Part shown: one piece after another, positions 4,670-39,743 of the stretch | Position numbering within the stretch: the first letter of the stretch is position 1 | Layout: each line of letters opens with the position of its first letter | Origin: Labia minor | Lineage: Eukaryota; Arthropoda; Insecta; Dermaptera; Spongiphoridae | DNA: 64,000 bases | NCBI GenBank assembly: GCA_963082975.1 | Contig: OY720350.1 | Location: forward strand, 52,282,734-52,346,733 | Direction: 5' to 3' | Made by a program: the position numbers and the translations under genes | The notes under the pieces: model-generated | Databases searched by the model: none | Told to the model about the DNA's origin: nothing | Seen by the model: only the letters and a program-made list of their open reading frames with translations

Positions 4670-4701
4670 CTAATTATTATATCTTTTTGTTTCAGGTAAG
4701 C
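4670..4701 (+). promoter_or_regulatory. Recursive splice site 1 (zero-length exon)
   Basis: A CTAAT branch point (4670-4674) is followed by a pyrimidine-rich tract ending TTTTTGTTTCAG at 4695. This abuts the 5' splice site GTAAGC at 4696. The branch A is 22 nt from the AG. This is the ratchet-point architecture known from long Drosophila introns. It implies a plus-strand transcript whose intron is removed in steps. Confidence 0.65.
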
Positions 4702-5572
4702 ATCTTCATTTACATTGATTTTTATTATTAAATAAATATTTAATCAAGATGCTGAAATGGTAAGGTTCACCTAATAATTTATTATACGTTTTTCTTAAAT
4801 TGTTTTAAGGAAATTAGTCTATTTTAAAATTATCACTATGAATAATTTAAAAAAATTTCAACCCTCTTAAGTAGGTTTTTTTTACCTTTTAAGCACACTA
4901 ATATATAATTAAAAAAAGTGTGTAAATGTTCTTAAAAGGAATTTCGTTATCAACCATTCACCCTTAATTATCTAGTGACCCGCTTTTTTTTACCTTCAAT
5001 GACCTTAAATATGAACCATTTATATCACCATTAAACCTATATATTATCTTCTTCAAGGTGAAGTTATTTGATAATCTCAAATAAAATTTCATATGACTAA
5101 CTTTTACTACATTAATAAAAAAAAAACAAATTTAACTTATGTATATAATAATAAAAATATTGTGCAAATTGGTATATTACATTTTAGTTCTGTTAATTTC
5201 ATATTCTGATAAGATCATTAATACATTAAATATCCTATTTTATTAATAAAAATGTTTTTGAAGATTTTTAGTATAAGATAAAAATTTATCTGATAAAAAA
5301 AAATTAAAATATCAATTTTATAATGATATACAGTTTACAAATAAACATATCATCTATGTTATAAATTTAAATTTTCATAAACGTTATAAATACTACAATA
5401 AATAACGAACAATAAATGACTAACATATCACTATTAATAAACTAATAAAAATAAATATAAAATTTTAACAATAAAAAAATGAATTGGTGTTAGATCTTAA
5501 CGTTAGTTTTGCGTTGGATAATTAAGTATATAGTACCGGGACCCCAAGTCTCGGCTCGATAATTTAGTTAAA
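4702..5572. other. AT-rich stretch
   Basis: No gene or repeat is recognised. The last 60 bases (5530-5570) are somewhat more complex, with CGGGACCCC and TCTCGGCTCG, and could be the decayed 3' part of the HINE-B fragment that follows. Confidence 0.5.
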
Positions 5573-5608
5573 ATACCTCCCTTACTATCGTCGGTCGGTA
5601 AAAAAAAT
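5573..5608 (-). mobile_element. HINE-B terminal fragment
   Basis: On the minus strand this reads a T run, then ACCGACCGACGATAGTAAGG and GAGGTA. That is the exact 5' terminus of the full copies at 34941 and 47900. Nothing further of the element continues, so it is a solo end or a highly shortened derivative. Confidence 0.7.
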
Positions 5609-6394
5609 GATTCATTATTATTGGGTTTGGCTGGTATTATTAATTACCTGATTCGCCGAGTCGCCATTCAAATAATAACATACAAACAGAAAAGTAGGCC
5701 TGTTGATATAAAATATATACCTGGGACACCGAGCTATCTTTGAATGAAAACATTATGAATAATTAAATAGTAAATAAATTCTGTTTCTATACATCAAAAC
5801 TTTCCTTTTCAATCACTCTATCTATTAAAAAAAAACATCAAAATCCATTGCGTAGTTTTAAAGATTGAAGCTTTTATAGGAACAGAGAAATTGACTTTGT
5901 TTTATACTATGTAATGATTATGAAAAAAATTTTTAAACAAATGTATTTAATTAAATTAATAACTTTAAAAAATATTAAATGATATTTAGCTTAATTATAA
6001 AAATTAAAATAAAAAGAAATTACTTAAAAAAATTACAACTATAACAATAATATTAAAAAATATATAAACTTACCTGAAAATAATTAGATATTTATTTGAT
6101 AAAATTAAATTTTTAAGTAAATAAATAAATTAAATAAATATAAAAAAATAATTAAATCAAAATTCAAAACTAATCAAGTAAAAAAGGCAATTGAAATGTT
6201 ATTAAATTATCTAAAAAAACAATTCTTATTATAAAAATGCAAATAAAATGATCAAAAAATAAATTTAAATTAAATAAATAAAACGTTTTAAATAGAAATT
6301 CAAATTAATTGATATTATGAAAAAAACATTAAAAATATTGAAATAAAAAATTAATAGTTCGATTTAATAAATTAAAATATTATAAACATTTTAG
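5609..6394. other. AT-rich stretch
   Basis: Very A+T-rich, lacking recognisable genes or repeats. Confidence 0.55.
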
Positions 6395-6650
6395 TGGGAA
6401 TTTCTCAGGAGGGTAGGGAGGTCAGATATGCGACAACTTTTATTCCAAATGTTCTCTCCTACGTCATGAAGAGCTGGATGACGTTTAAATTAAGGAAAAA
6501 CTAATGAAGATGATTTTTCCCAGATTAATAAAACTCGATTTTTCTTTATAAATACTACCTATGGTGTGAATTTCAAAAAAATCTATCGAGCGGTTTCTGA
6601 GAATCCATTTACAAATATATATACATACATACATAGCTGGTATAATAAAA
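6395..6650 (-). mobile_element. HINE-B-related rolling-circle element fragment (R)
   Basis: On the minus strand, a GTAT-type microsatellite is followed by the core box (AAACCGCTCGATAGATTTTT, then TGAAATTC). Next comes a block (AAAAATCATCTT...AGTTTTT...CTTAATTTAAA) and the pair ACGTCATCCAGC / TTCATGACGT. Both blocks occur in the same order in HINE-B at 48290-48350. The far end (CTGACCTCCCTACCCTCC) is unlike HINE-B. It is therefore a related family with other termini; exact boundaries are uncertain. Confidence 0.55.
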
Positions 6651-7379
6651 TTAGATATACAATTAATAGAAAATATACTTATATAATATTTATAATTATA
6701 TTTTAAATTCATATTTAATTTAATATGTAATTTTCAAAGAAAATTTTAATATCAGAAGAGTGTACATTTGCAGTATAGTTAAATCTAATTGGAAAGTTTT
6801 TGTCACTGCAAAGATAAATAAATACATACTCTAATGAAATTTTGATAAATGTAAATATATATGATTAATTTATGCAAATAAATAAATATTAACTATTAAA
6901 AAATTAGATAAATAAAATTAATATCAAACCTGAAGCATATTGATAAAATGCTAAACTACTGAATTTGAGAATTCAAACCTCATCACGTTCTTATGAATCA
7001 AAATAGCTAAGTGTGTAATCTTCACTTTAATTAATAGTGAATATAAAGATAGATATCAATATATTTAATTATTTACTATATCAGTGAAGTAATTGAAAAG
7101 TTTTAATTAATATTAATATTAATATTTATCTTTATTAACTAAATTTAATTTGATTTTTATTATTCCGTAGAATTTAAATGAATCAATAATTCTATTTAAT
7201 AATAGATAAATAAAAACAAAAAATGATTTATTGAGACATTCTTCAAAACTAAAAAAAAAAAAAAATAATTGAATTATAGATTCACTGAAAAGATGGATTA
7301 TATAAATACTCTTTTTTCTTCTTATAAATAGTTTGTGGTATATTTAGAAATGACAAGCAAAGAAACAATCCCTTAATTA
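6651..7379. other. AT-rich stretch
   Basis: No gene or repeat copy is seen; it contains several short A and T runs. Confidence 0.55.
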
Positions 7380-7860
7380 ATTAATTGGTACCCGAACGAG
7401 CTTTCCGGTTGAAAACTGTCTTTGACTCAACTCGAATAATTTATGGTGCACAGGTCGCCGTGAATTTTTGTTCAAAACTCGCCGACATTTTAAAAAAATC
7501 ATCTAATCTATAGTGCTAACATAAATACAACCCTCTGGAGGTGGAGTAGGGCGGATTTCCTAAAGGTCTCGACCCGTGGTGTTAACCCTTGAGCTTGTTT
7601 TTTTTTTTTGCCCTCTTTTTTACTTTTTTTTTATGGAAGGGCACCTGCATACTCACATGTGGACCAGATGATCATCTTCATTTCAAGAATGTTTTTCCTG
7701 TGTGTGGGTGTGACTTTTTTACGTGGCATAAGGTCAAAAAAGTTAAAAAAAGTCATGAAATATTGGCGACCCTGTAAATCTGAAAGGAAGGGTGTATGCC
7801 CCAAGGGGTTGATAGACATCCTGGCTTGTTAACCCAAACACACCAGCTGATTGGCAACAC
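7380..7860. other. GC-enriched island, candidate regulatory block
   Basis: Complex sequence unlike the surrounding AT-rich DNA and not repeated here. Overlapping short ORFs occur on both strands (7589-7832), none with a recognisable motif. The overlap in three frames argues against any one being real. Confidence 0.3.
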
Positions 7861-8150
7861 ACGACTCACTTAAAGCTTAATTAATAGAGAATAGAATCCC
7901 ATCAACTGATACACTTCCGAACATTATATGTATCTTTACTTAACTTTTTTTTTACTATCACTCTCTAACATCATATTTTTTACTGTCGTACAGAGAAACT
8001 TTACAAAACTCCCAACTACTTAATTGGAACATAATATGCAATTTGTAATATTTTAACCTATAATCAAAAAATAAAATTAAAATTTAAAAGAATTGATTGA
8101 AAATAATAATTGTTAGTTCATGAATGAATATATGAATGAATAGGTAGATG

Positions 8151-8901
8151 CAGTGGCATACCTAGGGGGGCGGTCCACACCGGGCGGCACTTATCTTGGG
8201 GCGGCATTTTTTATATTTAGTTATAGTTGTAAAAAGCAACTTATTCATTGCATATTTATTTTTTTTCTTTCTTGAATAATAAATGATTATTATGATTATT
8301 ATAAGTTTACTATTTGATTTATATAAATTATGATTAATTATATGATTTCGAATATTATTCCTCGGTGTATATAAATGCATTTTAGTGTAAATTTTGAATT
8401 CTAATTCCAAGAACACAGGATAATAATTTTATTTTATTGTATTCATTAAAATTCGTTGAATTCGTAAACCCATCTTTACGATTTTGTTCAGCAATTTTTC
8501 CTAACTAAAATTTGTTGATATCAGTTTATAAATGTCATTTCTTTTGAAAAGTTTATATGATTACTTTAAAGTGATATACCAATATTTTTTTAAATCATCG
8601 ATTTTTCTTTTGAAAAGCAGGGCCGGCGGAAAAAATATAAATATCAATTTTGAGAGCATTATACACGATTTTTCTAGTATGAAAGCTAGAAGAGTAAATA
8701 TTATATAAATATGTTTACGAGTGCATACAAATATGAGTAAAAAAATTTACTCTGTGTATTAATTAATATTGATTAAATAACTTAATAATTTATTTATGTG
8801 CATTAATTTATAAAAACCACTTTTTGATTGAATTATAATAAAAAGGGCGGCAAACTGGAGATCGCCCCGGGCGGCAAAAGTTCTAGGTACGCACGCCACT
8901 G
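8151..8901. mobile_element. hAT-type non-autonomous element, 751 bp, with perfect target duplication
   Basis: Ends are CAGTGGCATACCTAG at 8151 and CTAGGTACGCACGCCACTG ending at 8901, forming imperfect terminal inverted repeats. The 8-bp direct repeat GGTAGATG flanks it at 8143-8150 and 8902-8909, the hallmark of hAT transposition. GGGCGG-rich subterminal segments lie inside both ends. The interior is A+T-rich without a transposase. A GGGCCGGCGG motif near 8622 could mark an older nested insertion. Confidence 0.9.
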
Positions 8902-8945
8902 GGTAGATGTATTTTTGGCTCAAGGTTTTTTAAAAAATAAATAAT

Positions 8946-9216
8946 ATATTGGGTAGTCCGTAAAGTCACATTTCGTTTTTTCGTGAAAATGAAATATCAT
9001 TTTGAAATAACGAATAATTATTTTATTAAATTATATATTGGCCATTTTGGTCTAACACCTGTCGCCATTTTTCAGGTAGTAGCATGATACCACGCTCATA
9101 AAAATTTTTGGTCCTTGCTGGCAAAAAACTGATCCAGGTGATTTTTGACATCTTCATTTGAAATAAAGCTTTTTTCGTCTAAAAATTTTACAATGGTGGT
9201 GGTGACATTCTGAACC
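8946..9216 (-). pseudogene. mariner relic: transposase C-terminus, 3' UTR and inverted repeat
   Basis: On the minus strand the translation reads SNEDVKNHLDQFFASKDQKF, then after a one-base T insertion ERGIMLLPEKWRQVLDQNGQ and YII-stop. This is a characteristic mariner transposase C-terminus. A short untranslated tail follows and ends ACGGACTACCCAATA at 8946, a plausible terminal inverted repeat next to TA. The catalytic D,D34D region is absent and the reading frame is broken. It is a dead 3' fragment. Confidence 0.85.
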
Positions 9217-9998
9217 TAAGAAATAACGAATTACGAGAAATAAATAAATTCATTCAAGCAGAAATTTCAAATACAATTGTATTTAACTTGTAAATTACTT
9301 TTAACTTGAATACAAACACAAAATTATTTATTTTTATTAAAAAAATATTAAATTTAAATAAAAACATCAATTTCCTTATTTATTTATTGATAGATTTATT
9401 TCGATATTAGCTAGGTTTTTATTATATTTTCATGTAATTTTTAATTTTTTGTTTTGTAAGGAAAACTTCACTCGTTCAATTAGTCCAAAAATCCTCCTAT
9501 GACACTTGGTCACTGAGACTAAGACCCAGAATCCAACAATTCCCTTCTCGAAATCGTTTGTAAATGCCGCCAACATAGCCACCGAAACGTAATATAATAT
9601 ATATAGTCAGATTTGAAAACAATTTAAACGAGAGCTTTAATTTAGAGCAAAAAGAACGAATATAATGAAAAGGAATTTTTATACTCAAAAACACATATTC
9701 CTTCTAAAAAATAACAACTTTATAAATGATCAAAGGCAAAATCGTAAAAAATCAGTGACATTTTAATATTTTTACTTCTATTTTAGTTTAATCATTTATA
9801 TATATTATTATCTTTCAAATAATTGATTATAAATATATAAAAAGTGAATTTATTTATTTAATATTCTATTTTCACTTTTATTAATAATATATTATTGAAT
9901 ACATTCACAATATTATTTCTATAATCAAATTTTGTCCCCTTACATAGCGAAATCATATTTTATATCTTGAGCTATTTCTCTATTCTTATGAGCGTACT
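9217..9998. other. AT-rich stretch
   Basis: No gene is recognised. The segment near 9480-9600 is slightly more complex, with no domain in its minus-strand ORF. Confidence 0.5.
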
Positions 9999-10010
9999 TT
10001 TTACTATCTC

Positions 10011-10100
10011 GCCAGGCAGTACCTCGATGACCAATATAGAAAAAATATCTTTGGTTTGTAAACCATTCTAAAATTAATTCTTCTTTCTTAAAAGTCTATA
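10011..10100 (+). repeat. Short dispersed repeat O, copy 1
   Basis: Text from AATATAG through TTTGGTTTGTAAACC, CATTCTAAAATTAATTCTTC and TTAAAAGTCTATATTTTT is repeated, inverted, at 27835-27925. It abuts HINE-A copy 2. A HINE-A-like tip (TTTTTACTATCTCGCCAG) lies just upstream near 9999-10016, so the unit may be a HINE relative. Confidence 0.6.
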
Positions 10101-10662
10101 TTTTTACTATCTCGCCAGAGATAATATTGAGATCATGAAAATTTTCGATGTCGAGCTTTTGTTGTTTTTATACTTTTTGAGTTACTTTCACTAAGGTTGA
10201 GAAAATGTCTGTGAGTATGTGTGTATGTAGACAAGATTACGCAAAACCTGTTTGAACTAGAATAATGAAATTTGGTACACGGGCATTATTCAAAATTCAT
10301 AATTTTCTATCAACTTTTGAGAAATGTTGCTCATCCTACCACGTTTTGTTTTTTTTTCCTCTAAACTGACCATAAAAATAAAGATATATGTTTAATAGTT
10401 TTTCACATGATTAACAATTGTATAAAACTGCTTTATATAGAATTTCAGCTTGATTGAATCGCTGAAGGTACCGAAATTAATTTTTTAACACTGCAAATCA
10501 CGCGCCAGCACGTGACATGCTGCCATCAACAAAGAGCCAAACGCGCTGTTTTAATAAATATTATTTATTAATTTTAATTTATAATTTATAATTAATTAAA
10601 TTTAATTTAAATATATTAATTCATTTCAAATTTGCGAGATAGTCGAGTGGAGACACTCCACA
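10101..10662 (+). mobile_element. HINE-A copy 2, near full length
   Basis: It starts TTTTTACTATCTCGCCAG with the terminal hairpin. A short GTGTGT/GTATGTAG microsatellite precedes the core box near 10240-10275. The internal inverted repeat is GCGAGATAGT, and the 3' stem-loop GAGTG-GAGA-CACTC ends about 10659, followed by a T run. Small deletions remove the CGGAAGAGGG segment kept in other copies. Confidence 0.75.
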
Positions 10663-12039
10663 TTTTTTTTCAATTACTACACTTTTTTAGACAATATTAA
10701 AAAATAATTTGATTTTATTCATAAAACTCTATAATTTGAAATATAATAAAAATAATTTCACTAAAATAATGAAGAATTAAATTTAAGTATATTTTATTAA
10801 TAAAATTATCTCTCTCTTAACAATTTAATATAAATAAGATTTAAATTGTTAAATTTAAACTGATTAATTACTTTCCTTGATTTATCTCTTATATTTTTGA
10901 AAGTAAGGCTTCATTTTTTTAGATGATATTTTTATTTGTTTCTCTACGCTATGAACCAAATCAGAAATCTTCTTATTAATAATATACGGTCTACTTAATT
11001 TCACTTGTTCAAATAAATTTACAAAAACCCTTCATATCAAATTTATAGTACTTTCAATCCATATTTATCCTTATCTTCCTTGTGCCTTTTTAACAACTGA
11101 ATGAAATTTTTATAATAAAGAACTAAAATTCAGGAAAAAAAACAAAAATATTTGCAATTGCATATTTAAAAATAAAAATCGCCCATATTATAATAATTTG
11201 TTTACCTACTAATAATCGTTTCTAATTATAAAATATAATAGATTCAATTTGATATCTTTATGGATACATGTCATAATAACTAAACTTGATGCGTTTAATT
11301 TCTCAATCATTAAAATGATTAATTATATAATAATATAATCAAGTTAATAATTTTTTTCTAATGATTATTATAAAAATCAATGGTATAAAATTATAGGTGT
11401 AAAAAGAACTACGCACCAGAATCTTTACCGATATTTCACAATTTCAAATTAAAAAAAATAACCATTGTCTTTATTACTTACTTAACTAACAAGTGAAAAT
11501 TATAATAAGTCAAATATTTATCAAAGAAAAAGGAAATGGAATTGATATATTATTTAATTTTCTAGATAAGTCAAGAAAATATACTCTTTTAAATGTCTTT
11601 ATTATTATTCTTTTCTAGCATTTAAATTAAAGAAAAAAATAAGTATAAATAATTTGTTAATTTTATAATTTTATCAAAATTATTTGGGATTTTTTGAACT
11701 AGAAGAAAAGGGAAACAAAACCTTCCCGTCCTATCGTCGGTCGGTAAAAAATTTAATATTTGTGACAGACCTAATACAAATACAGAGCAAACTGAAAAAA
11801 GTTTTTATTTTTTAAATTTATTGGTTATTATTCTAGTTACTGATAAGTATAGTATTTTTATAACTGTTAGGATAAAAATTAAGGACCAAATTACTTCCTA
11901 TATTAATATATTAATATTAATATTATATTATATTAATATTTACTCAAACATTTTTTTTAATAAATTGTTATTAAATTTGAAAATGAAATTTTATTAATTT
12001 AAAACAAAGCTGATAATTAATTTGTATATAATACCGGAT
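10663..12039. other. AT-rich stretch
   Basis: No gene is recognised. A solo HINE-B end lies at 11721-11750 and is listed separately. Confidence 0.5.
11721..11750 (-). mobile_element. HINE-B terminal fragment
   Basis: The minus strand reads TTTTTACCGACCGACGATAG followed by GACGGGAAGG, a HINE-B 5' terminus with no attached body. Confidence 0.6.
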
Positions 12040-12250
12040 ATCAATTTCCTTAACGATATGGATTTTTCAATCGTTGCCGCCACTTAAGTCGATAGTAAAG
12101 GGACCGAAATGCTGGTCTTTCTTAATAAGAGACGGCGTCTCCGTTAACCCAGAGGGATTTGTCCAAAGTGTCATCATTGGGGCCAAAAGACCATGTTCCT
12201 TTCTTAATGGCACTTAACATTTTCACACACCATTTTGAGATGTTTTTCCT
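12040..12250. other. GC-enriched island, candidate regulatory block
   Basis: Unique complex sequence (for example GAGACGGCGTCTCCGTT, itself a small palindrome) in an AT-rich background. No ORF or repeat match was found. Confidence 0.3.
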
Positions 12251-12358
12251 GTGTCTTCTTCTTCTACTTCATCTTCACAAATATAAAAGCTCTTAATGTA
12301 GTCTACTAATCTTATATATAATCGGAAATTAGTCGTTTATCTTTAGTTTTTATCTAAA

Positions 12359-12360
<2 letters not shown>

Positions 12361-12392
<32 letters not shown>
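12361..12392. repeat. TA dinucleotide microsatellite
   Basis: Sixteen uninterrupted TA units. Similar AT runs occur at 2166-2195, 22639-22669 and 23994-24021. Confidence 0.95.
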
Positions 12393-16908: not shown

Positions 16909-17511
16909 TTTACTATTTCGCCAGAAAATTTTCGATGTTGAGATTTTTATGTTTGTATACGTTTTGAAGGTTCCTGAATCATTTTCACTAAGGTTGAGAA
17001 AAATGTCTGTGTGGGTGTGTATATGTGTGTGTGTGTATGTATGCAGACAAGACTACGTAAAAACGGTTTGAGCTAAAATCATGAAATTTGATATACGGGC
17101 ATTATTCAAAATTCGTAGTATTCTATCAACTTTTGAGAAAAGTAGCTCAATCGAAAGAGGGTCATTACCTACAACGTTTTGATTTTGTTTTCTCTAAACT
17201 GACCTTTAAAATAAGGATATGTTTGATAATTTTTCACATGATTAAAAATTGTATAAAACTGCTATATATATATATATATATTTTCAGCTTGATTGAATTG
17301 CAAAAAGTACTGGAAGTAATTTTTTAATACTGCACATCTCACGCGCCAACACGTGACGTGGTGTCATCAACAAAGAGCCAAACATGCGCTGGTTTAATAA
17401 ATATTATTTTTTAATTTAAAGTTTATAATTAATTAAATTTAATTTAAATATAATATATTATTATATTTAATCCAATTCAAATTGCGAGATAGTCGAGTGG
17501 AGACACTCCAG
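16909..17511 (+). mobile_element. HINE-A copy 3, near full length
   Basis: It follows a long T run. The terminal hairpin is damaged (TACTATTTCGCCAGAAAATT). The TG microsatellite lies at 17006-17041, then the core, CACGTGACGTGG near 17350, the internal GCGAGATAGT and the stem-loop ending CACTCCAG at 17511. CTAA then T follows directly, which could be the true Helitron-type 3' end. Confidence 0.75.
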
Positions 17512-20500
17512 CTAATTTTTTGAAATGAATGAAGCTGATTTCAACAAGATCCCAGACAAAAATTTCATTTATCTTATTTTTTCAATTTATTTTGGAGTAT
17601 AATCTCTTCCTGGGAACGAGTATAAAACATTTTTTTTAGTTGTTTTCTTTATAGAGAATTTAGGAAATAATTTTATTAAATTTGTTGAGCATTCACTTTC
17701 ATACAATGAGAAACTCTCAAGTAAATCAAAATAAATCGATGTTGTTTTGTTCAATATAAAGGAAATGAATTATTAAAATTTAAATTTATATTTATTTATT
17801 ATTTCTTCACCCCTTTTATACTTTTGCCTCTGAGTATATAGTAATATAATATAACCTTGGCTTATTCTGTCAGAGTTGTTAATTATATCTGTTGGTTTCT
17901 CATTAGATTGGTTTCTTTTATGAAAATATACCTTTATTTATTTTTATTTCAAATATGTTTTAATAATAAATCAATTACGAATTAAATTTAAATTAAAGCG
18001 ACAAGTTATTCTCTGAACAGTTTTGAATAAAAAATAAATAACTAAATCAAATAAACAAAGTTAACTGATGTGAATATCATATAAAATAAACCACTATACT
18101 ATTTTACCTACGTATTATTCATATTTTCATTAAGAGAGTAGAATATTTATAACAAAGCTAACTCTTTCCTACTCATTTATATCAATATATAATGATAATA
18201 TCAAATTTTATTAAATCTAAATATTTATATATCCATCCATTGATTTTATTCAATATCAGAATAGATTGAATAAAAAAAAAAATTTAAAACAAGAAAATAA
18301 AATTGTTCAAGAATCAAAATATTGACTTTTAATATAAATATATTTAGTGGTTGTTATTTAATAAATAAATAACATCTTCTTTATTATCGGTTATGGGCCC
18401 AGACTCCCAGAAAAATAACACTTCATGCAGCAAGTCTACTGATACATGGTAAAAATGTTGACAGACCCTTTTGATTCTGCTGTTCAAATTTATGACTTTC
18501 TGACTATTATTTAATAGGTTACTTTGGTTTTAGTAGTGACACATTTGCTGACAGAGAGCTCTTGTTTAACTGATTTCAAAAATATTATCTAGTATGACAC
18601 TAAATGAAACATGAATCCTTTATTACACTCATGATTTAGAGAAAAAATGGGCTCAAACTCTTTAGTTTAAAAGCAAAGAAAAATCTTTACAAAAAAAGTT
18701 TTAAAAATTTAAAAAAGTGTTGCAATAAATATATCACTCTAAAAGAAAAATATATTGATGAATAAAGAGACAAATTTCTAAAAAAACAAATATTTTCCTT
18801 TGTTAAATTGGAAACTTTTGAATATGTTATATATATATATAATAAATTGAATTTTTTGTAAAACTTATAAAAATATACATAATGGATGAAAATACAAATA
18901 TTGTTACATTCATGTATATACAGCCATTAAAAAGAATAGATTTGAAATTTGGTGACTTCAAAACAAATGCATTTTAATTAAAAATCAATCATATGAATTT
19001 GTTTTAGAGTTATATGTATAAAAATTTAAAATTTTAATGGATAGAATTTTATGAATTAGAAACTACTTAATAGATTCTTGAAAGAAATTTTCTTGAAAGA
19101 AGTAGCAGTTCTTCTAGTACTTCACACGAACTAAATATTGTACCTATATATTACAAGTCTAGTAAGATATTCCCTTAAAAAAAAAGAAGAATTTCTGTTA
19201 AATGGAATAATACTGGAATGCTAAGTAATTTATACCACTTTACTTATATTTTTGTAGTACTTGCGTAGTTTCCTTTACTCCTCCTTTCATTTTTTCAAGT
19301 TTATAAACAGATTGACAAAATTCAGAAAATTTTTGACGTACAACCGCTTCATTTATACATTTTCTGATTAAGAAATGTCATTTTCAACTTGTTTATTTTA
19401 CATGGAGCATGTAGCGCCCACTTTCGATAATAGCATGTAACAAGTCTGTGCGCTGCAGCAACGATACATCAATCAATGTATTTACCACTCTTAATGCATT
19501 CTTCAATTTGTTTGATGTGCGAGCTTTTTCATCCAAGAAATCTTAAGACAAAATTTTAAGTCTTTATTGAAAACTGATATTTGTTACTTCTTTTGAAATT
19601 ATGACTTGAGAGAACCTTTAGACACGAAAGGTAGATGAGAAGAATCACTAATAAATTTTTGACAATTACTTCTCAAAATTAAAACTATAATTAAGCATTA
19701 TAAAAGGTAATATATATTTTCAGAGTTCTATTTAATAGCTTTTACATATATAATATAACATGTTTTCTTTGTTTAACATCAATTAAATATAAAAGTATTA
19801 ATATCCAAAATCTGGTGACTGAAACCTTTTAATTTCATGAATTCTTATAGCAAATAATTAATTTGTTTATTATTATTATTTTTTTTTTCATATCTATTTA
19901 ATTCTAAATATAGAATCAATTGTATCCGCATATTGTATTATTAATAGATATTGATTAATCAAAATCTATATTATTATATTTTCATTATGATATAATGATT
20001 CTTATGTAATCCACAATCTATAATTGGTTAGATGAGTGGGTGGATGTTTATATCTTCAAACGTCTTGACAAGAAACAAAAACGGAAATTATTTTATATGA
20101 ATATATTTAAATCATATAATTATGAACAGTGGCGAGTTTTTTTCATTTTAAATCTTCTGAAATTAAAAACAACACGGAATTCAATATTTCAATATTTATC
20201 GAAAAAATAAGAATTCACAAAAAAAAAAAATGAAATTTAAAATTTTAAGAAAATTTTATTTTCAGAAATTTTCATGGCGTTCATTTTATATTATTTAATA
20301 CATATCCTAAGAATTGAAAAAGAAAATTAATTCGTTCATATTAAAATTTGATTAGATTCAGATATTAGCTATAGTCCTATATAATAGATACATATGAAAC
20401 TCGTGCATATTTATATATAATAGAATAGATCAGAAAATGAATAAATAATCTCATTCTAGGATAATATACCATATATTCTCTGTAATGAATATTTATAATC

Positions 20501-21143: not shown

Positions 21144-21455
21144 CTGTGTCAAGGCACAGAACCGACGTAAACTACCACTTCCAGATAAACACCAAAAGTT
21201 GATGAATTCATGCTACTGATGCATTAAGTAAATATAGCAAATTTTATCAAAATCCGTTGAGCCGTTCAAGCTGTTCACGTTTATACGGACAAACAATGGA
21301 CAGAAGGACGGACGGATGGTGGAAGAGAGACATCATACTATAAAAACTTTTCTCTGTTAACAAAATACATGATTCATGGAGATATATAAAAATCTCCATA
21401 TGTCAAATTTGGTGTGAAAACAATACCTTCCCTTCCTCTCGTAGGTCGGTAAAAA
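21144..21455 (-). mobile_element. HINE-B short derivative with both ends
   Basis: On the minus strand it begins TTTTTACCGACC, carries the TCCGTCC tract and core box (AACGGCTCAACGGATTTT, then GATAAAATTTG), and jumps from GGAAGTGGTAG to ACGTCGGTT. It ends with the stem-loop CTGTG-CCTTGA-CACAG. About 300 bp of the full element's interior is missing. The 3' hairpin differs in sequence from GACCTG-GCCA-CAGGTC of the long copies. Confidence 0.75.
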
Positions 21456-23858: not shown

Positions 23859-24065
23859 ACGCAATTAAAATCATTATATTATGTTTACATTCCAAATAAT
23901 AAATTCATAATATTCTCATAATAATTTGATGATTAATTAAATTAATTTTTAGAAATGTTTTAATATAGTTGTAATGCATTTTCAAATTCCATATTATATA
24001 TATATATATATATATATATAAACAAATATATTAACATTTTAATACTGAAATTATTAAATGATTTT
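22581..24065. other. AT-rich stretch with microsatellites
   Basis: AT runs at 22639-22669 and 23994-24021 and a TAA repeat at 23826-23856. No gene is recognised. Confidence 0.55.
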
Positions 24066-24102
24066 ACTAATTTTACTCATTTTCTTTTTCTTTTAGGTAA
24101 GA
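24066..24102 (+). promoter_or_regulatory. Recursive splice site 2 (zero-length exon)
   Basis: ACTAAT (branch A 24070) is followed by a strong pyrimidine tract, TTTTCTTTTTCTTTTAG, ending at 24096. It is joined directly to GTAAGA. The branch-to-AG distance is 26 nt. It is on the same strand as sites 1 and 3 and 19.4 kb from site 1. Confidence 0.65.
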
Positions 24103-26449
24103 GAAAATGTTCCAATATATGTATTTGTGATATAAACACAAAACAGTAAGTATTTTAATATTTATGACTAATAACAAAAATAAATCACGCTTATAATTAA
24201 AATATATAAATTTATTTTTTTATTAATATTTTCTTACATTGGACCACGGGTTTAATTTTGAATACTATTTTTATTTCTAACTAATTTCATAATTCTAGAG
24301 TCCAGAAAACCTATTATAAAATTGTATTTTCTTAATATTCACAAAAGTGCTTCAATTGTTTTTATTATAGGTACTCTGATTTTCTTTTATGAATATTTCT
24401 ACCAAAATAATAATTCGTTCAAAATACTTTAAAAAAAAAAATTGTCTTTCAATTTTTATTTTTATTTTTTAAATTAACATGATTTAATGTTTCCATTTTG
24501 TTGCTAATAATCATTTAATTGATTAACTTTGCTTTTTTTTTTAATTTATACATTTTAAAAAAATTATGTTAACAATTGTCGAATGAGAGTAATATTCCTC
24601 ATTTTATGCTTATTATTCTATTAAAAAATAAATCATTGACCTCATCATTCATTTTCCCATCATATTGAATGAAAAAAAAAAATAATAACTTAGCATTTAT
24701 AAAGAGAGTTGTCTTGACTATTCAATCATTAAATAATATTAATAATAATAGTTGAAAAAAAAAACAAAAGAATAGATACAAAATACAAATTATATATGAA
24801 AAATTATTTTGTCAATTTCTAATGATAATAATATACACATGAATTTGTCAATGTCAGTAACTTCCTGAATTCATTACTAATATCAATCATTTCCTATTTA
24901 ATATTCCTTATCTATGCAATTAAATAAATAATATTTTGCAATTAAAGAATTTATTATCGATTATATACCATATATATAAAAATATATCTTAATCTAAATA
25001 GATATATTATATAAAATTAGAAAATAAATAAATACGTTTGATGTAATATTAATAGTATTAGTAATTTTTTCATTTATTTGAAATTCTATTTTTAAATTAA
25101 ATTTTTATATAAAATATATTTAAAAGTGAAATGAGCTAATAATATTTATAAGAAAGTAAAGTGAATTTTTTTTTTTTGAAAAAATTAATTTTCCTAAAAA
25201 GTTTAATACTTTTAGGACATTAAAAATAATACCACATATGTATATTTCTATGGTAAAAGTTGGATCTTACCAAAAGCCTCTTATCATTAATCTAAAAAAA
25301 GTCAAAATTTCATTAAAAATATATGAAAGAGAAAATTTTAATCCACAAAAATATGGATAATTAATTAATGACAATGTAAAAGTTTTAATTTTAAAATAAT
25401 TAAAATCATGAAGATATAAATAAATATTTCTTGAAATACTATTTCATATCTATCTATCTAAAAACTGAATTCTATATTAATTTCTTCAAATACTTTTTGC
25501 TCAATATTATTTATAGTTTAGGAAATTGATTAACTGTTAACTATTTTCAATAAAAGATGTACAATTGACTCCATTTTCATAGAATTTAATTATTATCTGT
25601 TTGTGGGTAGTATTTTGATTAATAACTTTTATCTATAGTTAAATTGATATTAAAAGTTATTGAAAACCTATGGTAACTAACATTAAACTTAAATATATAA
25701 AAATAATCTTTTAATTAACCCTTCGGTGAATATTTGTTTGATGCGCATTTTCGTGCTAGCACTTCTGATGATGTTGTGACAACCAAAATAAATAAACTTG
25801 AAATTTCAAAATAAAATAAATAATTTACTACTTTAAATAATTACAATTTTTAAGTAAGAAATTTATTTTCTAAAAGCAATAATTTAACTTGATAACTCAA
25901 TAATCAAGTATAATAATAAAGATAAAAAAAAATTAAGAAATAAATTAAGAAATATATAATTAATTATGTATATTCTAACCTAAAATCTACAAATTTAGTG
26001 AAAACAAAATTTCTGATATTAAAATATCTACTTAAATATTTTTACTTATATATGTATGGAAATACAATTTATAAACATATTTACTATTAATATTAAAAGA
26101 AAGTTGATATAGGAAAATAGTAGAGATTTCTTTTTGAGAAATCACATAAATTATATATCCATTCCAAAACACGAGGGAATTCGGTGATGATAGTAATTGG
26201 GTGGAGGGGTAGTTCACAATAACCACCTTTAGAAAAGTGCAGATAAGAACTTTTGATTAGAAGTAGTATCAAGCAGAAATTAAATTTAAATAAAAAGATA
26301 GATTGACCCTTAAAAAATATGTATAATATGTAATATTTTCAATTTTTTAAAAAAATTATTATGTTCTCTTTTATAATTTTTTTTTTTTAAATATTTTACA
26401 GGAAGTTGTGTGGATAATTGCTAAACGATACTCAGGTTTTCTATTTTTT
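24103..26449. other. AT-rich stretch
   Basis: No gene or repeat copy is recognised. A weaker AG|GTACTC site occurs near 24370 but lacks a good branch point. Confidence 0.5.
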
Positions 26450-28550: not shown

Positions 28551-30297
28551 TTCAATTTACAGAAAAGAAAGAAAAAAACAGGAAAGTGAAAAAACTTCCG
28601 AGCTAAATTTTAAGTTAAGTTGAGTGGTGATGGATTATTCATAAATGGTCAATTGAAAGAATACCTCCCTTAGAATTTAGGCCATAAAATCAGTCTAGTA
28701 ACCTGAATTTTTTTTTTACACGACCACCCTTTTTTTCTCATAATAAATTATTCTCTTGATATTCTAGAAGAAGAATAAAAAAAATATTAGAAATAATTTT
28801 CAATAATTTCAAACATTTAATTATTAAAACCAATGTATTGTCAAATTGAGTTATTTTTAGAAAAATTATAGCTATACTTTAAAAATTAATTGGATAGACA
28901 TGTCCAATATTAATCGTTTATTGACATCAACGGAGACAAAAAGAGGAGTCGATTTAATAATTTATTTAGAAAATAAAAAACAAACTTAATAATTCCCTTT
29001 AAAAGTGCAGACACATAATTTTCCAAGTTAATATTATTAAAAATTTCTCAAATAATGGTTATATTTAAAATAATTGGAATTTAACTCATTTCAGTCTTGT
29101 TATTTTAATAATTTTTTTTTAATTTGTCTTTCAATATAATTATTAACTGTTAGTTCTACTGAAACTGAAAGTTTGCAGTAATCACACCTTCAAATTGCAA
29201 TAATTACAATAAAATAATATAGAATAATCATTTATTAATTTTCAATGCAATAATTTACATAATTTACCAAAATTTTAATATTTTTAAGTATTTAGCAATC
29301 AACTTAATATTATGTTTCAAGTATAAGATTAATTTTTTGAATTTTACTTTCTTGGAAATAAATTGCAAATACAGGTACTATATCAACTATATATATATAT
29401 ATAATAAATATTCTAAAATACATATACAAATACAATATTGAAAATATGTTACCTTCAATTGAATTGAAAATAGATCAGATGTGGCTTGACTTAACTTTTA
29501 AAGAGTATCAAAAATAAAAATGAACAATTTATAAAAAAAATAAAGACTAAAAATTTTTTATTTACTAATTATTTTAAGATAATAAAATTGAATACCTGTT
29601 GAAATTCAAATAGGAAAATTATTTACTATGCATTTAATCAAATATTAATAAAATAAAGAAAAAGGGAAAATAAACGAAAAAAATAGATATCAAATCAAAA
29701 ATAGTATTAAATATTTCAAACTGAATCATTTCAATTTTATCAATATTGTTCAATTAAAAATTTAAAAGAAATGGGGCTAAAAATAGATTTTAAGATTTAT
29801 CAAATATTAATTCAGTAAAAAAACGGAAGGTTCATTTTGGAAGAATTGAGGTATTAACACTCAATTAATTATAAATGTAATTTTATTGATTTTTCTAAAT
29901 CAATTTAAGTGTCTTTTATTTGGACTCACCTACCAAATGTAGTGATATTTTTCATTTATTAGTTATTCGAAAAAAATTTAAAAAATAAGCAAATATTTTT
30001 TAAATTTAAAGAATTTTTATTTCTAAGTTTTATTTAATAAATGTATTTTTAAAAAAAATTGATTAATTAATCATTTAATTTGAATAAAAACTTTTGTCTG
30101 AATATAAATATTATTTAAATTATATTATCGTAAATCACTGATCAATTTAACTTGAGAACGACGACACAAAGTTACTAAATTTTAAATAAAAAGATAGATT
30201 ACATAATATAATTTAAGTGTGTTTTTACTTAACTCACCTATACCAATTGGAGTGATTTTTTTCATTTAATTCAATTTTATAATGATTAAGAGATACA
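28551..30297. other. AT-rich stretch
   Basis: No gene or repeat copy is recognised. The phrase ACTCACCTA...CAAATG/CAATTG followed by AGTGAT...TTTTTCATTTA recurs at about 29924 and 30231, hinting at a small local duplication. Confidence 0.45.
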
Positions 30298-33002: not shown

Positions 33003-33180
33003 TCTTATAAATAAAAATGAATCGAAAAATGTGTTGGTAACCGCATCACTCAATAACGCCTGGACCAATTTTAACAATTCTTTTTTTTAAAATGTTCGTT
33101 GAAGTCCAAGGATGGTTTTTACGGCGAGAAAAAATCGAATAATTGCCTAAAAACAGCCCTTTTTTCCCCATACATATTTT
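33003..33180 (+). mobile_element. Helitron-like 5' end fragment (S)
   Basis: It starts TCTTATAAATAAAAATGAAT, followed by GTTGGTAACCGCATCACTCA and the box AACGCCTGGACCAATTTT then AACAATTC. Next come GTTCGTTGAAGTCCAAGG and TTTTTACGGCGAG. This resembles the 5' region of animal Helitrons. Only the 5' part is recognisable; no CTRR end was assigned. Confidence 0.5.
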
Positions 33181-33307
33181 TCAATATTATGCAATATGTA
33201 CATAATTACTATTTTTCAATATTATGTAATATGTAATTACTAATTGATAAAAATCATAGCTGATAAGTATTATGCAGTAAAGGAGCTTATCTCATCAAAA
33301 CTATTAT

Positions 33308-33966
33308 CAAAGAGGATCAAAATTGAAATATATAAAACAATTATTTTTCATGTTGATCGATGACTAGGGTGACCATATTACGAAAACACCAAACCGGGAC
33401 AAACGGTTTACCTTTTTTTTTAGAACTAAATTGAAAAAATTTTGAAAAAAAGTACGAAATGTCCTAAATATTGAAAAAAGGGATAATAGGCTGTCCCGAA
33501 GAAATTTTTTGGGACGCCGGGACAGAGCACCTAAAAACGGGACAATCCCAGAAAAACGGGACGTTTGATCACCCTATCGATGACTCTGGGAGACGAGAGT
33601 AGATTTAAAGTATTTGTGAGATTAGTATTGTTCGCAGCATTTATAGGCCAAAGGAAGATGAGGTCACAGGAGGATGGCGGATATGGCATAACGAGGAATT
33701 GTATGATCTCGAGATATAGTTAAGGTTATAAAATCGAGAAGGCTGAGATGGGAAGGGGACGTGGCTGAAATGGGAGAAGCTAGACATTTGGAGAAACCGA
33801 TTGGGAAACATCCGGTGCAAGACCAAGGACGCCGTGGTTGGTCAATGAAGGAAGGGACATGGGAGAGATGGGACAGGGTAGGATTTGGTTGTAGCTCAGG
33901 ATAGAGAAATGTGGATGCTCCGACTAAGAACTTTCGAAAACTGTAGAGACACAGAGTTAGATAAAT
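33308..33966 (+). pseudogene. Non-LTR retrotransposon C-terminal fragment (family E, copy 3), split by a hAT element
   Basis: The left part encodes RIKIEIYKTIIFHVD. After the hAT insert, frame-shifted text continues (LKVF..., then HNEELY-like, IKSRRLRW, GRRGWSM). It ends with CTGTAGAGACACAGAG and a degraded GATA-like tail. It is 5'-truncated, with multiple frameshifts and stops. The same 3' end occurs at 41834 and 44347. Confidence 0.75.
33365..33576. mobile_element. hAT-type miniature element H, 212 bp, with perfect target duplication
   Basis: Ends TAGGGTGACCATA and TGATCACCCTA are inverted repeats. The 8-bp duplication TCGATGAC occurs at 33357-33364 and 33577-33584. The interior repeats GGGAC motifs (CCGGGACAAAC, CGGGACAATCCC). 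It interrupts the retrotransposon fragment. Confidence 0.95.
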
Positions 33967-34019
33967 ATAACATATACAATAATAATATATAATTAATTTA
34001 CTGATTAAATTAAAATATA

Positions 34020-34153
34020 TTTTAAAAGAAAACAAATAAACGTCTTATCTACTTATACTGATTGAAACAAAATGGATGAAAACCTTTTACATACAGACTT
34101 TCAACCAAATACAATGTATCACTTGGGGGTACAGGGGACGGAGCCCCCGTCTA
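34020..34153 (+). mobile_element. Fragment of the Helitron-C copy 1 3' region
   Basis: It repeats 4262-4390 (AAGAAAACAAATA, CTTATACTGATTGAAACAAA, GGGGGTACAGGGGACGGAGC) up to the GGAGCCCCCGTCTA hairpin segment. It lacks the final GAGCGCCT stem-loop and CTAG. It is either truncated or ends at an alternative CTAA. Confidence 0.7.
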
Positions 34154-34776
34154 AATATGATATATTACAATCTTTAATATTGTTTGTTAATTTTTTTTTT
34201 AACTATTAATTAATTAAATTTTTAATTAAAAATTGAATATTGAAATTTTAATAAATTTCAATTGGCAAGATACAACAGTGTCATAGATATATATTTCATT
34301 ATTAATAAATATATAGAATATATAGAAATATAAAAGATTGAAATCAGGTGTGTGTGAATATATATATGAACGTGGGGGTGTAGTCAGTCTTTAACTATGA
34401 CGTTGAATGTGTAATAGTAATGTAATCTAATATTTAAGATAGATAGTAACAGAAACTTTTTCATTAAAATTAGCTTTGAAATGTTTTTATGTGATGTATT
34501 CAAAAACGGATTTAACGATTTTAATTAAATATAATGAAACTCCACGGGATTGAGACTTGTTTCATCCATGTATCATTTTGATTAAACTTGAACCACTAGG
34601 TGTGTGGAACGAATTTTTTTTTTTATAAAAAAATCTAATTGTCTTATCTTTTCAAACATTCCGACTAAAAATCATTCAAATTAATAATGTGTTTTTCAAA
34701 TATAAAATGAAAAAAATGAGAAGAATAACTAATAAGCAAAAATAAATTAATTAATAAATTCAAGTTTATTAATATA
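34154..34776. other. AT-rich stretch
   Basis: No gene or repeat copy is recognised. Confidence 0.5.
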
Positions 34777-36199
34777 CTAGCAGACCCGACAAAGCTTCGC
34801 TTTTGCATGTGTGTCTGTATACATATATATACGTACATGATAACTGAGCACTTAATAATAATAATAATAATGTATTATATATATATATATATATAAATGA
34901 ATATAATTGAAATTTTAGTTTTAATTGGACTTTTTTTTCTTTTTACCGACCGACGATAGTAAGGGAGGTATTGTTTTCACACCAAATTTCACATGTGGAG
35001 ATTTTTACATATCTCCACGAATCATGCATTTTCTAAACAGAAAAAAGTATTTTTAGCATGATGCCTGTCCGTCCGTCTGTCCGTCCGTATAGATGTGTAC
35101 AGCCTGAACGGCTCAACCGATTTTGATGAAATTTGGTATATTTACTTAATGCATCACTGGGATGAATTGATCAACTTTTGGTGCAAATCCGGAAACCGGA
35201 AGTGGTAGTAATAGCGATCGACGATAGGAAGGGAAGGGTTATTTTCACACCAAATTTCACATGAAGAGATTTTTTTATATATCACCACGAATCATACAAT
35301 TTCTATTGGTTTTATCCTCGGGAAAATCATATTTATTAGTTTTTTCTTGATTTAAAATTATATGACGTCATCCAGCCATTCATGACGTCACAGTCTGTTC
35401 TTACATATATATTATAAATAAAATAAAATTAAAAATATTTATGTTATATGCCTATTTGTTTTTTATTACATTAATAGATATATTAAAATTATTTGAAATT
35501 GTTTCTGTAGCTGGAAATTAATTTACTTCAAACCGTCGGTCGGTTCGGACCTGGCCACAGGTCAACATTTATTTTTATTGGAGTTATTACAAATAATAAT
35601 AATAATAATAATCATAATATACCGTTTAATACGTGAAAATAATAATAATATCAATGCTATCAATAATATCAATCCTGAATATGCTTTTAAATAAAAAAAA
35701 AATTGAAGAAAGTAATTGGAATTATTATTATTAAGAATCAACAAATAAATTTATTAAATATACATTTAAATATGTAAATAAATCTATATATAAATTTAAT
35801 AAATATTCAAACAATAATTGAAACAATATAAATAAAACTATTCTTACATTGTGATTTATATTTTTATTTTTATTACAACTGTTATTATGGGTATGTTATT
35901 TTTGACAGTTTAAAAAAAAATTAAAAATATTAATAAAATTTATCAAAATAATAAGTTGAAAAGATTTCCAATTATTTTTATTTATTTATTGTAAATTTTT
36001 CAATATAACCATGGTAACCATGAATAGACTTTTACCAAAATATTACTAAATAAATTAATTTTGGATTTAACCACACTAAAACCTTCCTTGGTATGCCCAC
36101 AACAATCCCTGAACTTTTCATCGCAATCGGACGGGTAGTATTTGAGTTTAGGCGAGACAGACACACAGACAGACATTCCCTTTTATGTATATATATAGA
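34777..36199 (-). mobile_element. Helitron-C copy 2, carrying a nested HINE-B
   Basis: On the minus strand the 5' end is TCTATATATATACATAAAAG at 36199. A GTCTGTCTGTG tract follows and then the core (CCGTCCGATTGCGATGAAAA, GGGATTGTTGTGGGCATACC). The 3' end is stem AAAGC-GAA-GCTTT, then GTCGGGTCTG and CTAG at 34777-34780, followed by T. These are canonical Helitron termini. HINE-B occupies 34941-35566. An AATAATAAT repeat lies near 34856. No Rep/helicase is encoded. Confidence 0.85.
34941..35566 (+). mobile_element. HINE-B copy 1, full length, nested in Helitron-C
   Basis: It starts in T run + ACCGACCGACGATAGTAAGG. It has a TCCGTCCGTCTG tract near 35068 and the core box AACGGCTCAACCGATTTT + GATGAAATTTGG at 35107-35136. 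ACCGGAAGTGGTAG follows, then a partial repeat of its own 5' end (35213-35300) and paired TGACGTCA sites (35362-35391). The inverted internal end is CGTCGGTCGGT, and the stem-loop GACCTG-GCCA-CAGGTC is followed by AAC. The layout parallels HINE-A exactly. Confidence 0.85.
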
Positions 36200-36535
36200 T
36201 ATATATAATATATATATATATCAATTAATATCATTTATTTTTTAAATACAAATTATAATTATAATTATTTATTGTATTATGTCGTTATTTTTAATATAAT
36301 TTAAGTATTATTATTATTACAACATTTCGATTGGCCTGCCTTAGTTTTTGTTTTAAAGTTTTAAATTTATAAGAGAGACAGTAAGATAAAATGATAAATT
36401 GCAAATCCCACAAGTCATAAAATAATTCCTGTTTACGTGGAAGTAAAATTATAACCAAATGTATAATTTTCAATATATATATATATATATATATATGTTA
36501 CTTTTCATTTCTTTCTATTTTTTTTTTATTTTTAT
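36200..36535. other. AT-rich stretch
   Basis: AT runs near 36200-36220 and 36475-36496. No gene is recognised. Confidence 0.5.
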
Positions 36536-36539
36536 TTGT

Positions 36540-37045
36540 ATTCATTCGATCCATTTGCAAGGAAACAATTGGGTGCTCATCAGTCGATGGTGTGGGGGTG
36601 GCATATACCGTGGGCGTTTCATTCTCACACCCCCTCACCCCTTTATCCTTCCCACATCCCGTTTTTGTCCTGTGGGGATGTTTGCAAGGGAGAGAGCGAG
36701 TACATGCTGGTTTTCCTTGATCTAGGTCATATTCAGGTTGAAGGCCACGCCATCCCCCCCTTTTCCTCCCATTGCCATGAAGATCCCCGGGGACGCTTGG
36801 TTGAGGGCGCATGCGTCAACGAGTTGCCAGGCGCCCGGTCCTCCCCGTCAAGTGGAATGACGAGGGCAGATCGATGGTGTCCAACCAATTGGCCTGACCT
36901 AAAAATAACCGGCCACCCTTTGTAGAGTAATTCACGAGAGATGCCGGCCATTGCATCACTCTTGTTGGACCAATTGGACAGTGAAAGTGATTCACTTAAG
37001 AAGAGAGACAATCACTGCAACCTCCCACTCCCCCGTCCTCAATCA
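36540..37045. other. Largest unique GC-rich island, candidate regulatory block or exon
   Basis: About 500 bp with high G+C, no second copy, and open frames on both strands overlapping each other. No domain is recognised in any frame. Two CCAATTGG palindromes lie near 36886 and 36970. The mutually overlapping ORFs reflect few stop codons in GC-rich DNA rather than coding. Confidence 0.4.
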
Positions 37046-37070
37046 TCCTCTCTTATGTATTAAAAATTGA

Positions 37071-37076
<6 letters not shown>

Positions 37077-37118
<42 letters not shown>
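37077..37118. repeat. ATA trinucleotide microsatellite
   Basis: About fourteen ATA units. Similar trinucleotide runs occur at 23826-23856 and 56168-56196. Confidence 0.95.
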
Positions 37119-37169
37119 CAAGTTCATTTAAGTACAAGAATTTCTTCAACTTATACTTTTCAAAAAAAA

Positions 37170-37743
37170 GATAGTATTGCGATCACGAAAATTTTCGATG
37201 TTGAGATTTTGATGTTTTTATACGTTTTGAAGGTTCCTGAATCATTTTCATTAAGGTTGAGAAAAATGTCTCGGTGTGTGTGTGTGTGTGTGTATGTATG
37301 TAGACAAGATTACGCAAAAAGAGAATGATGAAATTTGGTACATGGGTATTATTCAAAATTCATACTTTTCTATCAACTTTTGAGAAATGTAGCTCAACCG
37401 GAAGAGGGTCATTACCTATAACGTTTTGATTTTTTTCCTCTAAAGTGACCGTAAAAATAAAGATATATGTTTGATAATTTTTCACATGATTAATAATTGA
37501 ATAAAACTGCTATATATAGAAGTTCAGCTTGATTGAATCGCTGAAAGTACCAGAATTAATTTTTTAACACTGCAAATCTCACGCGCCAACACGTGCCATG
37601 GTGCCATCAACAAAGAGCCAAACATTCTCTGGTTTAATAAATATTATTTATTAATTTTAATTTATAATTTAATTTAATTTAAATTAATATATGTTATTTA
37701 ATCCAATTCAAATTTGCGAGATAGTCGAGTGGAGACACTCCAG
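37170..37743 (+). mobile_element. HINE-A copy 4, missing the first half of the 5' hairpin
   Basis: It begins inside the hairpin (GATAGTATTGCGATCACG) after an A run. The TG microsatellite lies at 37276-37302, followed by the core, CACGTGCCATGG, the internal GCGAGATAGT and the stem-loop ending CACTCCAG at 37743. Confidence 0.75.
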
Positions 37744-38476
37744 ATTTTTTTATATGATTTTTTAGATATTTCACATTGTTCTTGATTCTTAATTTCTGGT
37801 TGAATAATTTCATAACATCGAATGTTTTAATACAAATATTGTTATAATATATATATATATTTAACTGTTTTAATAAAATCATAAGTAAAATCCAATTAAC
37901 TGATTATTAATTTTCCATACCCCCGGAAATTGTTATACGGATCACAATTTAATAAGCACAAAATTAAACAAAATTATAATGCTCTGTAATATATATAAAA
38001 TATTAAATAAATAAAAAAAATCTAATTTAATAACATAATAATAATAATAGTTTAACAACCATTTAGAAAAAATATTTAAGTGTAAATTTAATAAAAATTT
38101 TTTTTATTTGTTTGCCAAGATTAGAAGAAGAATATATACCTACATATTATATATCATACATGTAAATTGAATTATCATATCATTAATAAATAATGAGAAT
38201 TTAAGTGAAAATAAACTGTAAAGATTATCATGATTTAACTAAATGACTAACTTATAAAAATCTAATCACGAGTTTCATGGATGAATAGAAATACACATAT
38301 ATGCATACTTATTAACATTTTATTGTATTTCTTGAAAATATAATATTTAAAACAATTTTATTCTATTTTTAACAAACTAAATGAACTTTTTAAGATAATT
38401 GATTTACAATTTTTTGAATGAATTTAAATTCTGACGATCAAATTTAAATTCATTTCGTATAGTAATTTAATATCGG
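37744..38476. other. AT-rich stretch
   Basis: No gene or repeat copy is recognised. Confidence 0.5.
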
Positions 38477-38903
38477 AAAACTTCGCAGTAACTACATTTC
38501 TCTCCAGCATTTTACTTCCATATAATTATTATTCTTTCTAAATTCTCTAGTTAATTGTATATCCATAAACCATTTTTTCATTGTTTACCTCATAACATAT
38601 CTGTGTATTTATTATCCAATCATTTATTATTACTCATTTTGTTTTCCCTATTGGTTTCCTCATGAATAAGCATTTCACCAACTTTGCTTATCCTATTTAA
38701 GTCAAAACTTTGCAGTAACTACATTTCTGTCCATCATTTGACTTCCATATAATTATTATTCGTTCTAAATCCTCTATATGTTATTGTATATCCATAACCC
38801 ATTATTCATTGTCATATTTGTGTATTTATTGTTTTTGGACGTTTTCCCTATTGGTTTTCCCATGAACAAGCATTTCACCAACTTTTCTTGTCCTATTTAA
38901 GGC
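38477..38903 (+). repeat. Two-unit tandem duplication
   Basis: Unit 1 (38477-38703) and unit 2 (38704-38903) share AAAACTT.GCAGTAACTACA, TTGACTTCCATATAATTATT-type text and CATTTCACCAACTTT. Unit 2 has lost about 27 bp. Divergence is visible, so the duplication is not recent. Confidence 0.85.
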
Positions 38904-39664
38904 AAAATTCAACAATTAATAATTTACAATTAATTAATTAGTTTAAAATTAAATAGATAAATCATCAAATATAACTAAAAAAAATAAATTTGTCTTATTC
39001 TATTATTTTTTTTTTTTTGGTTATTTCTTTTTTTTGGCAATAGTAAATTCGAAATCTTCTATTCTAAAATTATGAATACTCTTGACGCCTCGGTCTTGCT
39101 ATTTATTATTGATTTATTTTCAGCATTATTTATTTCTAAAGATATATAAATAAATATTATTTCCAAATTAAAATTATAATAAATTTTCATTACTTACTCC
39201 TAATTTTGGACAATTTTTTAAAGTATTTATTTCATTGAAATTGCATTTACTTTACATTTTATTTTTATTATTTATATAAAATATTATTATATAAAATAAT
39301 AGAATTTAAATTGTTTTATTGGGCAAACAAAATATTAATTAAAACGAATTTTCTATGAGACAATAACGATTTTATTATTTATAAAAAAAAAATTAAAAGT
39401 ATAATTAAAGATATATTAACTTGTAGAGATGTCCTTGCCCTCACGTGAACTCACGATTTGTCCCATCCAACCTTTCTCATTATCTTGCATTGAAAAATCA
39501 TCTCTTTTACCTTCAACTCCTCCTTGCATTCATTACACCTTATTTCTTATAAAAAAAAAATAAGTAAATGTATAATTCTCTGGATATAAAAATAAATAAT
39601 AAAATAAAAAAAAAATAGATATTAAAATAAAAATTAATTATTAATGACAATTATATTATTAATC
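38904..39664. other. AT-rich stretch
   Basis: No gene is recognised. The text near 39428-39545 is slightly more complex. Confidence 0.5.
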
Positions 39665-39666
39665 AT

Positions 39667-39743
39667 CTCTAATAATAATTTGTGATATTTTTTTTCCAGG
39701 TATGTTGTTGCTCTCTTTGACTCTGATTAATCTTTTTGTAAGT
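39667..39743 (+). promoter_or_regulatory. Recursive splice site 3 with a 38-nt downstream cryptic exon
   Basis: CTCTAAT (branch A 39672) is followed 27 nt later by TATTTTTTTTCCAG ending at 39699, joined directly to GTATGT at 39700. A second consensus donor, GTAAGTT, begins at 39738 and defines a possible 38-nt exon (39700-39737). Such a downstream donor is known to support recognition of recursive sites by exon definition. Confidence 0.65.

Follow-up and report, generated by a model that had tools for sequence, protein, structure and literature searches.

In Drosophila, a ratchet point is followed by a short cryptic recursive splicing exon (RS-exon) of about 50 nucleotides (nt) with its own downstream donor (Joseph et al. 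2021, PMC8605326). Recursive segments in flies are typically 9-15 kb in length (Pai et al. 2018, PMC6110457). The papers on ratchet points that I found treat Drosophila and mammals, and among the openly licensed papers listed, none deals by title or abstract with recursive splicing in insects other than Drosophila, which is weak evidence of absence. Here, three sites are described in a stretch of 64,000 nt from contig OY720350.1 (positions 52,282,734 to 52,346,733 of the forward strand). The whole stretch is called the window, and its first letter is position 1. Judging from the signals in the DNA, these sites are likely ratchet points of a very long plus-strand intron, or of more than one such intron, in the gene of an animal that is probably an insect. 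The insect assignment draws on the general character of the window, namely the AT-richness, the CTAAT branch points, and the type of the retroelement gag. It was also found that each site is followed by a donor, so that short cryptic RS-exons, which would be skipped, probably occur here rather than strictly zero-length exons. The sites are referred to as RP1, RP2, and RP3, and their parts are as follows.

4670..4674, plus strand: RP1 branch-point candidate CTAAT, with the branch A 22 nt before the end of the AG
4676..4701, plus strand: RP1 polypyrimidine tract and CAG acceptor fused to the donor GTAAGC, junction 4695/4696
4696..4759, plus strand: RP1 candidate cryptic RS-exon, 64 nt, stop codons in three of three frames
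4760..4765, plus strand: RP1 RS-exon donor, ATG|GTAAGG
24067..24071, plus strand: RP2 branch-point candidate CTAAT, 26 nt from the branch A to the AG
24077..24102, plus strand: RP2 polypyrimidine tract and TAG acceptor fused to the donor GTAAGA, junction 24096/24097
24097..24145, plus strand: RP2 candidate cryptic RS-exon, 49 nt, stop codons in two of three frames
24146..24151, plus strand: RP2 RS-exon donor, ACA|GTAAGT
39669..39673, plus strand: RP3 branch-point candidate CTAAT, 27 nt from the branch A to the AG
39680..39705, plus strand: RP3 polypyrimidine tract and CAG acceptor fused to the donor GTATGT, junction 39699/39700
39700..39737, plus strand: RP3 candidate cryptic RS-exon, 38 nt, stop codons in two of three frames, weak donor context
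39738..39743, plus strand: RP3 RS-exon donor, TTT|GTAAGT, weak at positions -3 to -1

An initial annotation of the window had reported three fused AG|GT sequences on the plus strand, and direct reading of the DNA found all of them in place, with GTAAGC, GTAAGA, and GTATGT behind the AG. The distances that it gave from the branch A of CTAAT to the AG (22, 26, and 27 nt) are exact, and the spacings, given as 19.4 and 15.6 kb, measure 19,401 and 15,603 nt. Its interpretation of the sites as ratchet points is well borne out by the sequence: the branch points and the downstream donors coincide with the core motif at the same three sites. What probably does not stand is the strictly zero length of the exons. 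The AG and the GT are indeed fused, but exactly one GTAAG lies within 150 nt downstream of each site, at 64, 49, and 38 nt, which the initial annotation had not pointed out. By base counts, the GC content of the window is 25.8%, and the introns of Drosophila are far above this value.

The three sites resemble the Drosophila ratchet points of Ubx, kuz, Bx, and Ten-m (PMC8605326 and PMC6110457) in having an acceptor AG directly juxtaposed to a donor GT and a strong pyrimidine tract. Further similarities are the presence of several sites per long intron (a putative one here) and an exon content that is apparently non-coding. The downstream exon is short in both cases, about 50 nt in Drosophila (PMC8605326) versus 64, 49, and 38 nt here. 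Unlike the Drosophila cases, one of the donors here is GTATGT, and the sites here are known from sequence alone. Mammalian RS-exons (PMC6224609) share the logic that splicing of the RS-exon restores a donor at its junction, whereas the candidates in the window look cryptic. Ratchet points are an already known type of element, and the donors of the cryptic RS-exons are the new addition at this locus.

To score the core motif, a 3′ splice site matrix was joined to a 5′ splice site matrix and applied to every position of both strands, with a normalization following Pai et al. (PMC6110457). Neither the branch point nor the downstream donor entered this score. RP1, RP2, and RP3 are the top three plus-strand sites (0.934, 0.930, and 0.919), and the fourth has a score of 0.864. 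The threshold for the comparison with shuffled sequences was the score of the observed third site itself. For Markov shuffles of orders 1, 2, and 3 (300 each), the average number of sites at this level was 0.043, 0.060, and 0.077 per strand, and three sites were reached in none of the 900 shuffles. The window merely reversed or complemented has no site at this level (best scores 0.894 and 0.882). A log-odds score, which favors G+C, places one more plus-strand site at or above the third of the three, for a total of four; this additional site is at 21444 and ranks second. The corresponding 600 shuffles (150 for each of four models) had on average 0.08-0.19 sites, and none of them reached three. 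Thus, in the comparison with shuffled sequence that had been proposed in the initial annotation, the matrix-scored window exceeds the shuffles, where 0.04-0.08 sites per strand are expected and three never occur together.

A strict composite pattern was also counted, consisting of YAG, at least 12 pyrimidines in 16 positions, CTAAY at 18-35 nt, and GTRAG or GTATGT. Three such patterns were observed on the plus strand, versus a mean of 0.0025 and a maximum of one per strand in 400 third-order shuffles. When acceptor-like sites were picked blind to the downstream sequence (YAG, 12 or more pyrimidines in 16 positions, and CTAAY at 18-35 nt), seven were found on the plus strand and two on the minus strand. 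Three of the seven plus-strand sites run directly into GTRAG or GTATGT. The background of these donor strings is about 0.1% per position and, after AG, 0.16% on the plus strand and 0.26% on the minus strand. The binomial p for three of seven is about 1e-7 at the per-position rate and 2e-5 at five times that rate. When the cut-offs were varied over 12 settings, two or three plus-strand sites were found under all of them, and the minus strand had none, except for one site when the pyrimidine cut was at its loosest (three settings). These counts bear out the earlier claim that three sites with branch points are unlikely to arise by chance, as three cores occur in 0 of 900 shuffles and the composite pattern occurs three times versus 0.0025. 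The observation of three sites is well above chance.

The branch points and the downstream donors were then counted over all AGGT sites. CTAAY is located 18-35 nt upstream of 8 of the 140 plus-strand AGGT sites, including all three candidates (Fisher p 1.3e-4). The CTAAT motif may have helped in choosing the sites in the initial annotation; the matrix ranking did not use it. A branch point was found in none of the next five plus-strand sites inspected and in one of five minus-strand sites inspected (29930). GTAAG is present 20-80 nt downstream of 7 of the 140 plus-strand AGGT sites, again including all three candidates (Fisher p 8e-5), and of 2.3% of sampled plus-strand positions. Both features together are found at only three of the 140 sites, namely RP1, RP2, and RP3, and at none of the other 137. 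On the minus strand, both are found at 1 of 147 AGGT sites (2421, whose own donor is GTTTCT).

None of the candidate RS-exon lengths (64, 49, and 38 nt) is divisible by three. RP2 and RP3 have one open frame each in these segments. The lengths, together with the stop codons in all frames of RP1, fit a scenario in which recognition of the segments serves exon definition and they are skipped afterward.

The signals are observed in the DNA, and I infer from them the host gene, its transcription, the junctions, and the sequence of splicing events in the following scheme. An upstream exon would be joined to the acceptor at 4695, aided by the recognition of the cryptic exon 4696-4759 via its downstream donor. 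This first junction would recreate a donor (exon|GTAAGC), which may be re-used for the splice to 24096. GTAAGA would likewise be re-used for the splice to 39699, and GTATGT toward an acceptor that may lie beyond the window or, unrecognized, inside it. In this manner, the intron would be removed piecewise, about 15-20 kb at a time, and the mRNA would lack the skipped cryptic exons. It is plausible that the whole window is one giant intron.

Several observations weigh against the ratchet-point interpretation. The matrices consist of approximate insect (Drosophila-like) frequencies and were not trained on the genome of the window. On the minus strand, a site at 6074 has a score of 0.938, the same level as the plus-strand three, and the next one has 0.908 at 41388. 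In 3-8% of shuffles, the top log-odds score equals or exceeds the observed best, and a single site of such core strength is unremarkable and would prove little. The bare strings AGGTRAG and AGGTATG occur six times on the plus strand versus eight times on the minus strand, without a plus-strand excess. The downstream donors had been noticed by eye before they were counted, which makes their test less than blind. With a nine-position donor matrix, an equally good donor exists 20-100 nt downstream of 2%, 8%, and 31% of plus-strand positions, and the RP3 downstream donor is the weak one of the three. At 19.4 and 15.6 kb, the spacings slightly exceed the 9-15 kb that is typical of flies (PMC6110457). 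Some of these observations, in particular the equal core score of 6074 and the counts of the bare strings, would be expected if AT-rich, T-rich DNA simply yielded ratchet-like AG|GT sites. However, such an accident did not bring three cores together in any of the 900 shuffles, and the branch points and downstream donors, which were not used in the ranking, converge on the three sites, and none of the remaining 137 AGGT sites of the plus strand has both. The 6074 site has neither a branch point nor a downstream donor in range. Its core (TTTTCAG|GTAAGTTT) is isolated and as strong as those of the plus-strand three, but the distance between the AG and the sole CTRAY is 10 nt, all donors at 15-120 nt score 4 or less, and GTAAG is absent within 150 nt. 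Thus, 6074 was rejected as an opposite-strand ratchet point and is probably due to chance. For the three plus-strand sites, chance is a very improbable explanation.

Might the 64-, 49-, and 38-nt segments be expressed microexons instead? They would then be alternative exons in some mRNAs, like m1 and m2 of Drosophila Ubx, with the donor at their 5′ terminus serving their removal. An acceptor and a branch point precede every segment and a donor follows it, and the single open frames of RP2 and RP3 would permit such a use. On the other hand, with the stop codons in all frames of RP1 and no length divisible by three, inclusion would in most cases disrupt the reading frame of a coding sequence, although inclusion in an untranslated region may occur. 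I regard microexons as unlikely, though less so than chance. A slightly less probable explanation than microexons is that the sites are ordinary acceptors, belonging to unrelated exons or to several genes of the plus strand, with GTAAG or GTATG at the exon start by coincidence. They would then not be serial ratchet points of one intron. Since no host exon was recognized, a single shared intron is unproven, which leaves some room for this explanation. However, a strong donor directly behind a strong acceptor in all three cases would be unexpected for ordinary exons, and no host coding exon with a Pfam match above the cut-off was found in the 60 open reading frames (ORFs) compared, out of 74 with 70 aa or more.

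If the ratchet-point interpretation is confirmed, the cryptic-exon form of recursive splicing would extend to a very AT-rich genome, and a branch point, an AG|GT, and a nearby GTAAG donor would suffice to pick ratchet points without RNA data. A broader proposal, which I favor only slightly over its negation, is that serial ratchet points with a Drosophila-like cryptic RS-exon architecture are at work in an insect lineage that is distant and extremely AT-rich. This would make them an old and general insect route for the removal of giant introns, predictable by a three-part signature (a branch point, a fused AG|GT, and GTAAG 20-80 nt downstream).

Three further sites were rejected. The plus-strand site at 21444, second in the log-odds ranking, has the donor GTCGGT, has neither a branch point nor a downstream donor, and lies within a dispersed repeat. 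The minus-strand site at 29930 combines GTGAGT with a CTAAT at 29 nt; its tract, however, is weak (score 0.868), and GTAAG is absent downstream. At the minus-strand site 2421, a branch point and a downstream GTAAG are both present, but the donor is GTTTCT.

The surroundings of the sites are compatible with an intron without proving one. The window has 74 stop-to-stop ORFs with a length of 70 aa or more, and the Pfam comparison covered 60 of them, with E-value cut-offs of 0.1, 0.05, or 0.01 depending on the batch. The 14 ORFs left out were 12 on or antisense to a gag-like ORF and a GT repeat (56747-58845), plus 53219-53461 and 59471-59689. No match above a curated cut-off was found among the 60, and no host exon was recognized; exons that are fast-evolving, free of Pfam domains, or below about 70 codons in length would escape this comparison. 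Five Pfam matches were obtained, all under the curated cut-offs: a zinc knuckle (E 0.0078, in the gag-like ORF) and DCX2_DCDC1, DUF6007, SMIM43, and DUF6020 in one ORF each. When the window was scanned for exon-like pairs of an acceptor and a donor, 95 were found on the plus strand versus 98 on the minus strand, with no plus-strand excess. The window has no match to Rfam, and ARAGORN found no tRNAs in it.

RP1, RP2, and RP3 are not inside the dispersed repeats found by self-comparison; the nearest repeat is 305, 2257, and 792 nt away, respectively. Short AT-rich, low-complexity tandem repeats precede the branch points of two sites (23991-24031 and 39583-39644). The identity between the sites is 28-47% in the flanks versus 62-69% in the core. 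Since the flanks are dissimilar, the three sites are not copies of one element.

The C-terminal part of the longest ORF of the window (56765-58264, minus strand, 499 aa) contains a zinc-knuckle region (E 0.0078 in Pfam; best E 8e-05 with nucleocapsid chains in the PDB). This ORF is probably a gag-like ORF of a retroelement, presumably of the type without long terminal repeats. A (GT)n array is located at 58563-58788. Self-comparison revealed a dispersed repeat of roughly 450-680 bp with at least eight related copies, which are 77-94% identical in pairs, as well as several other families. The copies are as follows.

1067-1746, 10099-10676, 16922-17530, 37169-37767, 48693-49301 (minus strand), 50003-50463, 55204-55786, and 58748-59258: dispersed repeat, from self-comparison

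The last of these copies is located alongside the GT array that neighbors the gag-like ORF; thus, the family may be the tail of the gag-like element. Two repeat pairs were also found, 34938-35573 with 47897-48531 (92% identical) and 35665-36205 with 52412-52944 (91% identical). A diverged family (33600-34030, 41429-41882, 44112-44402, and 2671-2797) has 69-76% DNA identity between the matched pieces and similar proline/serine-rich minus-strand ORFs. At 44775-45065, there is a tandem array of about 4.5 copies of a 64-65 bp unit.
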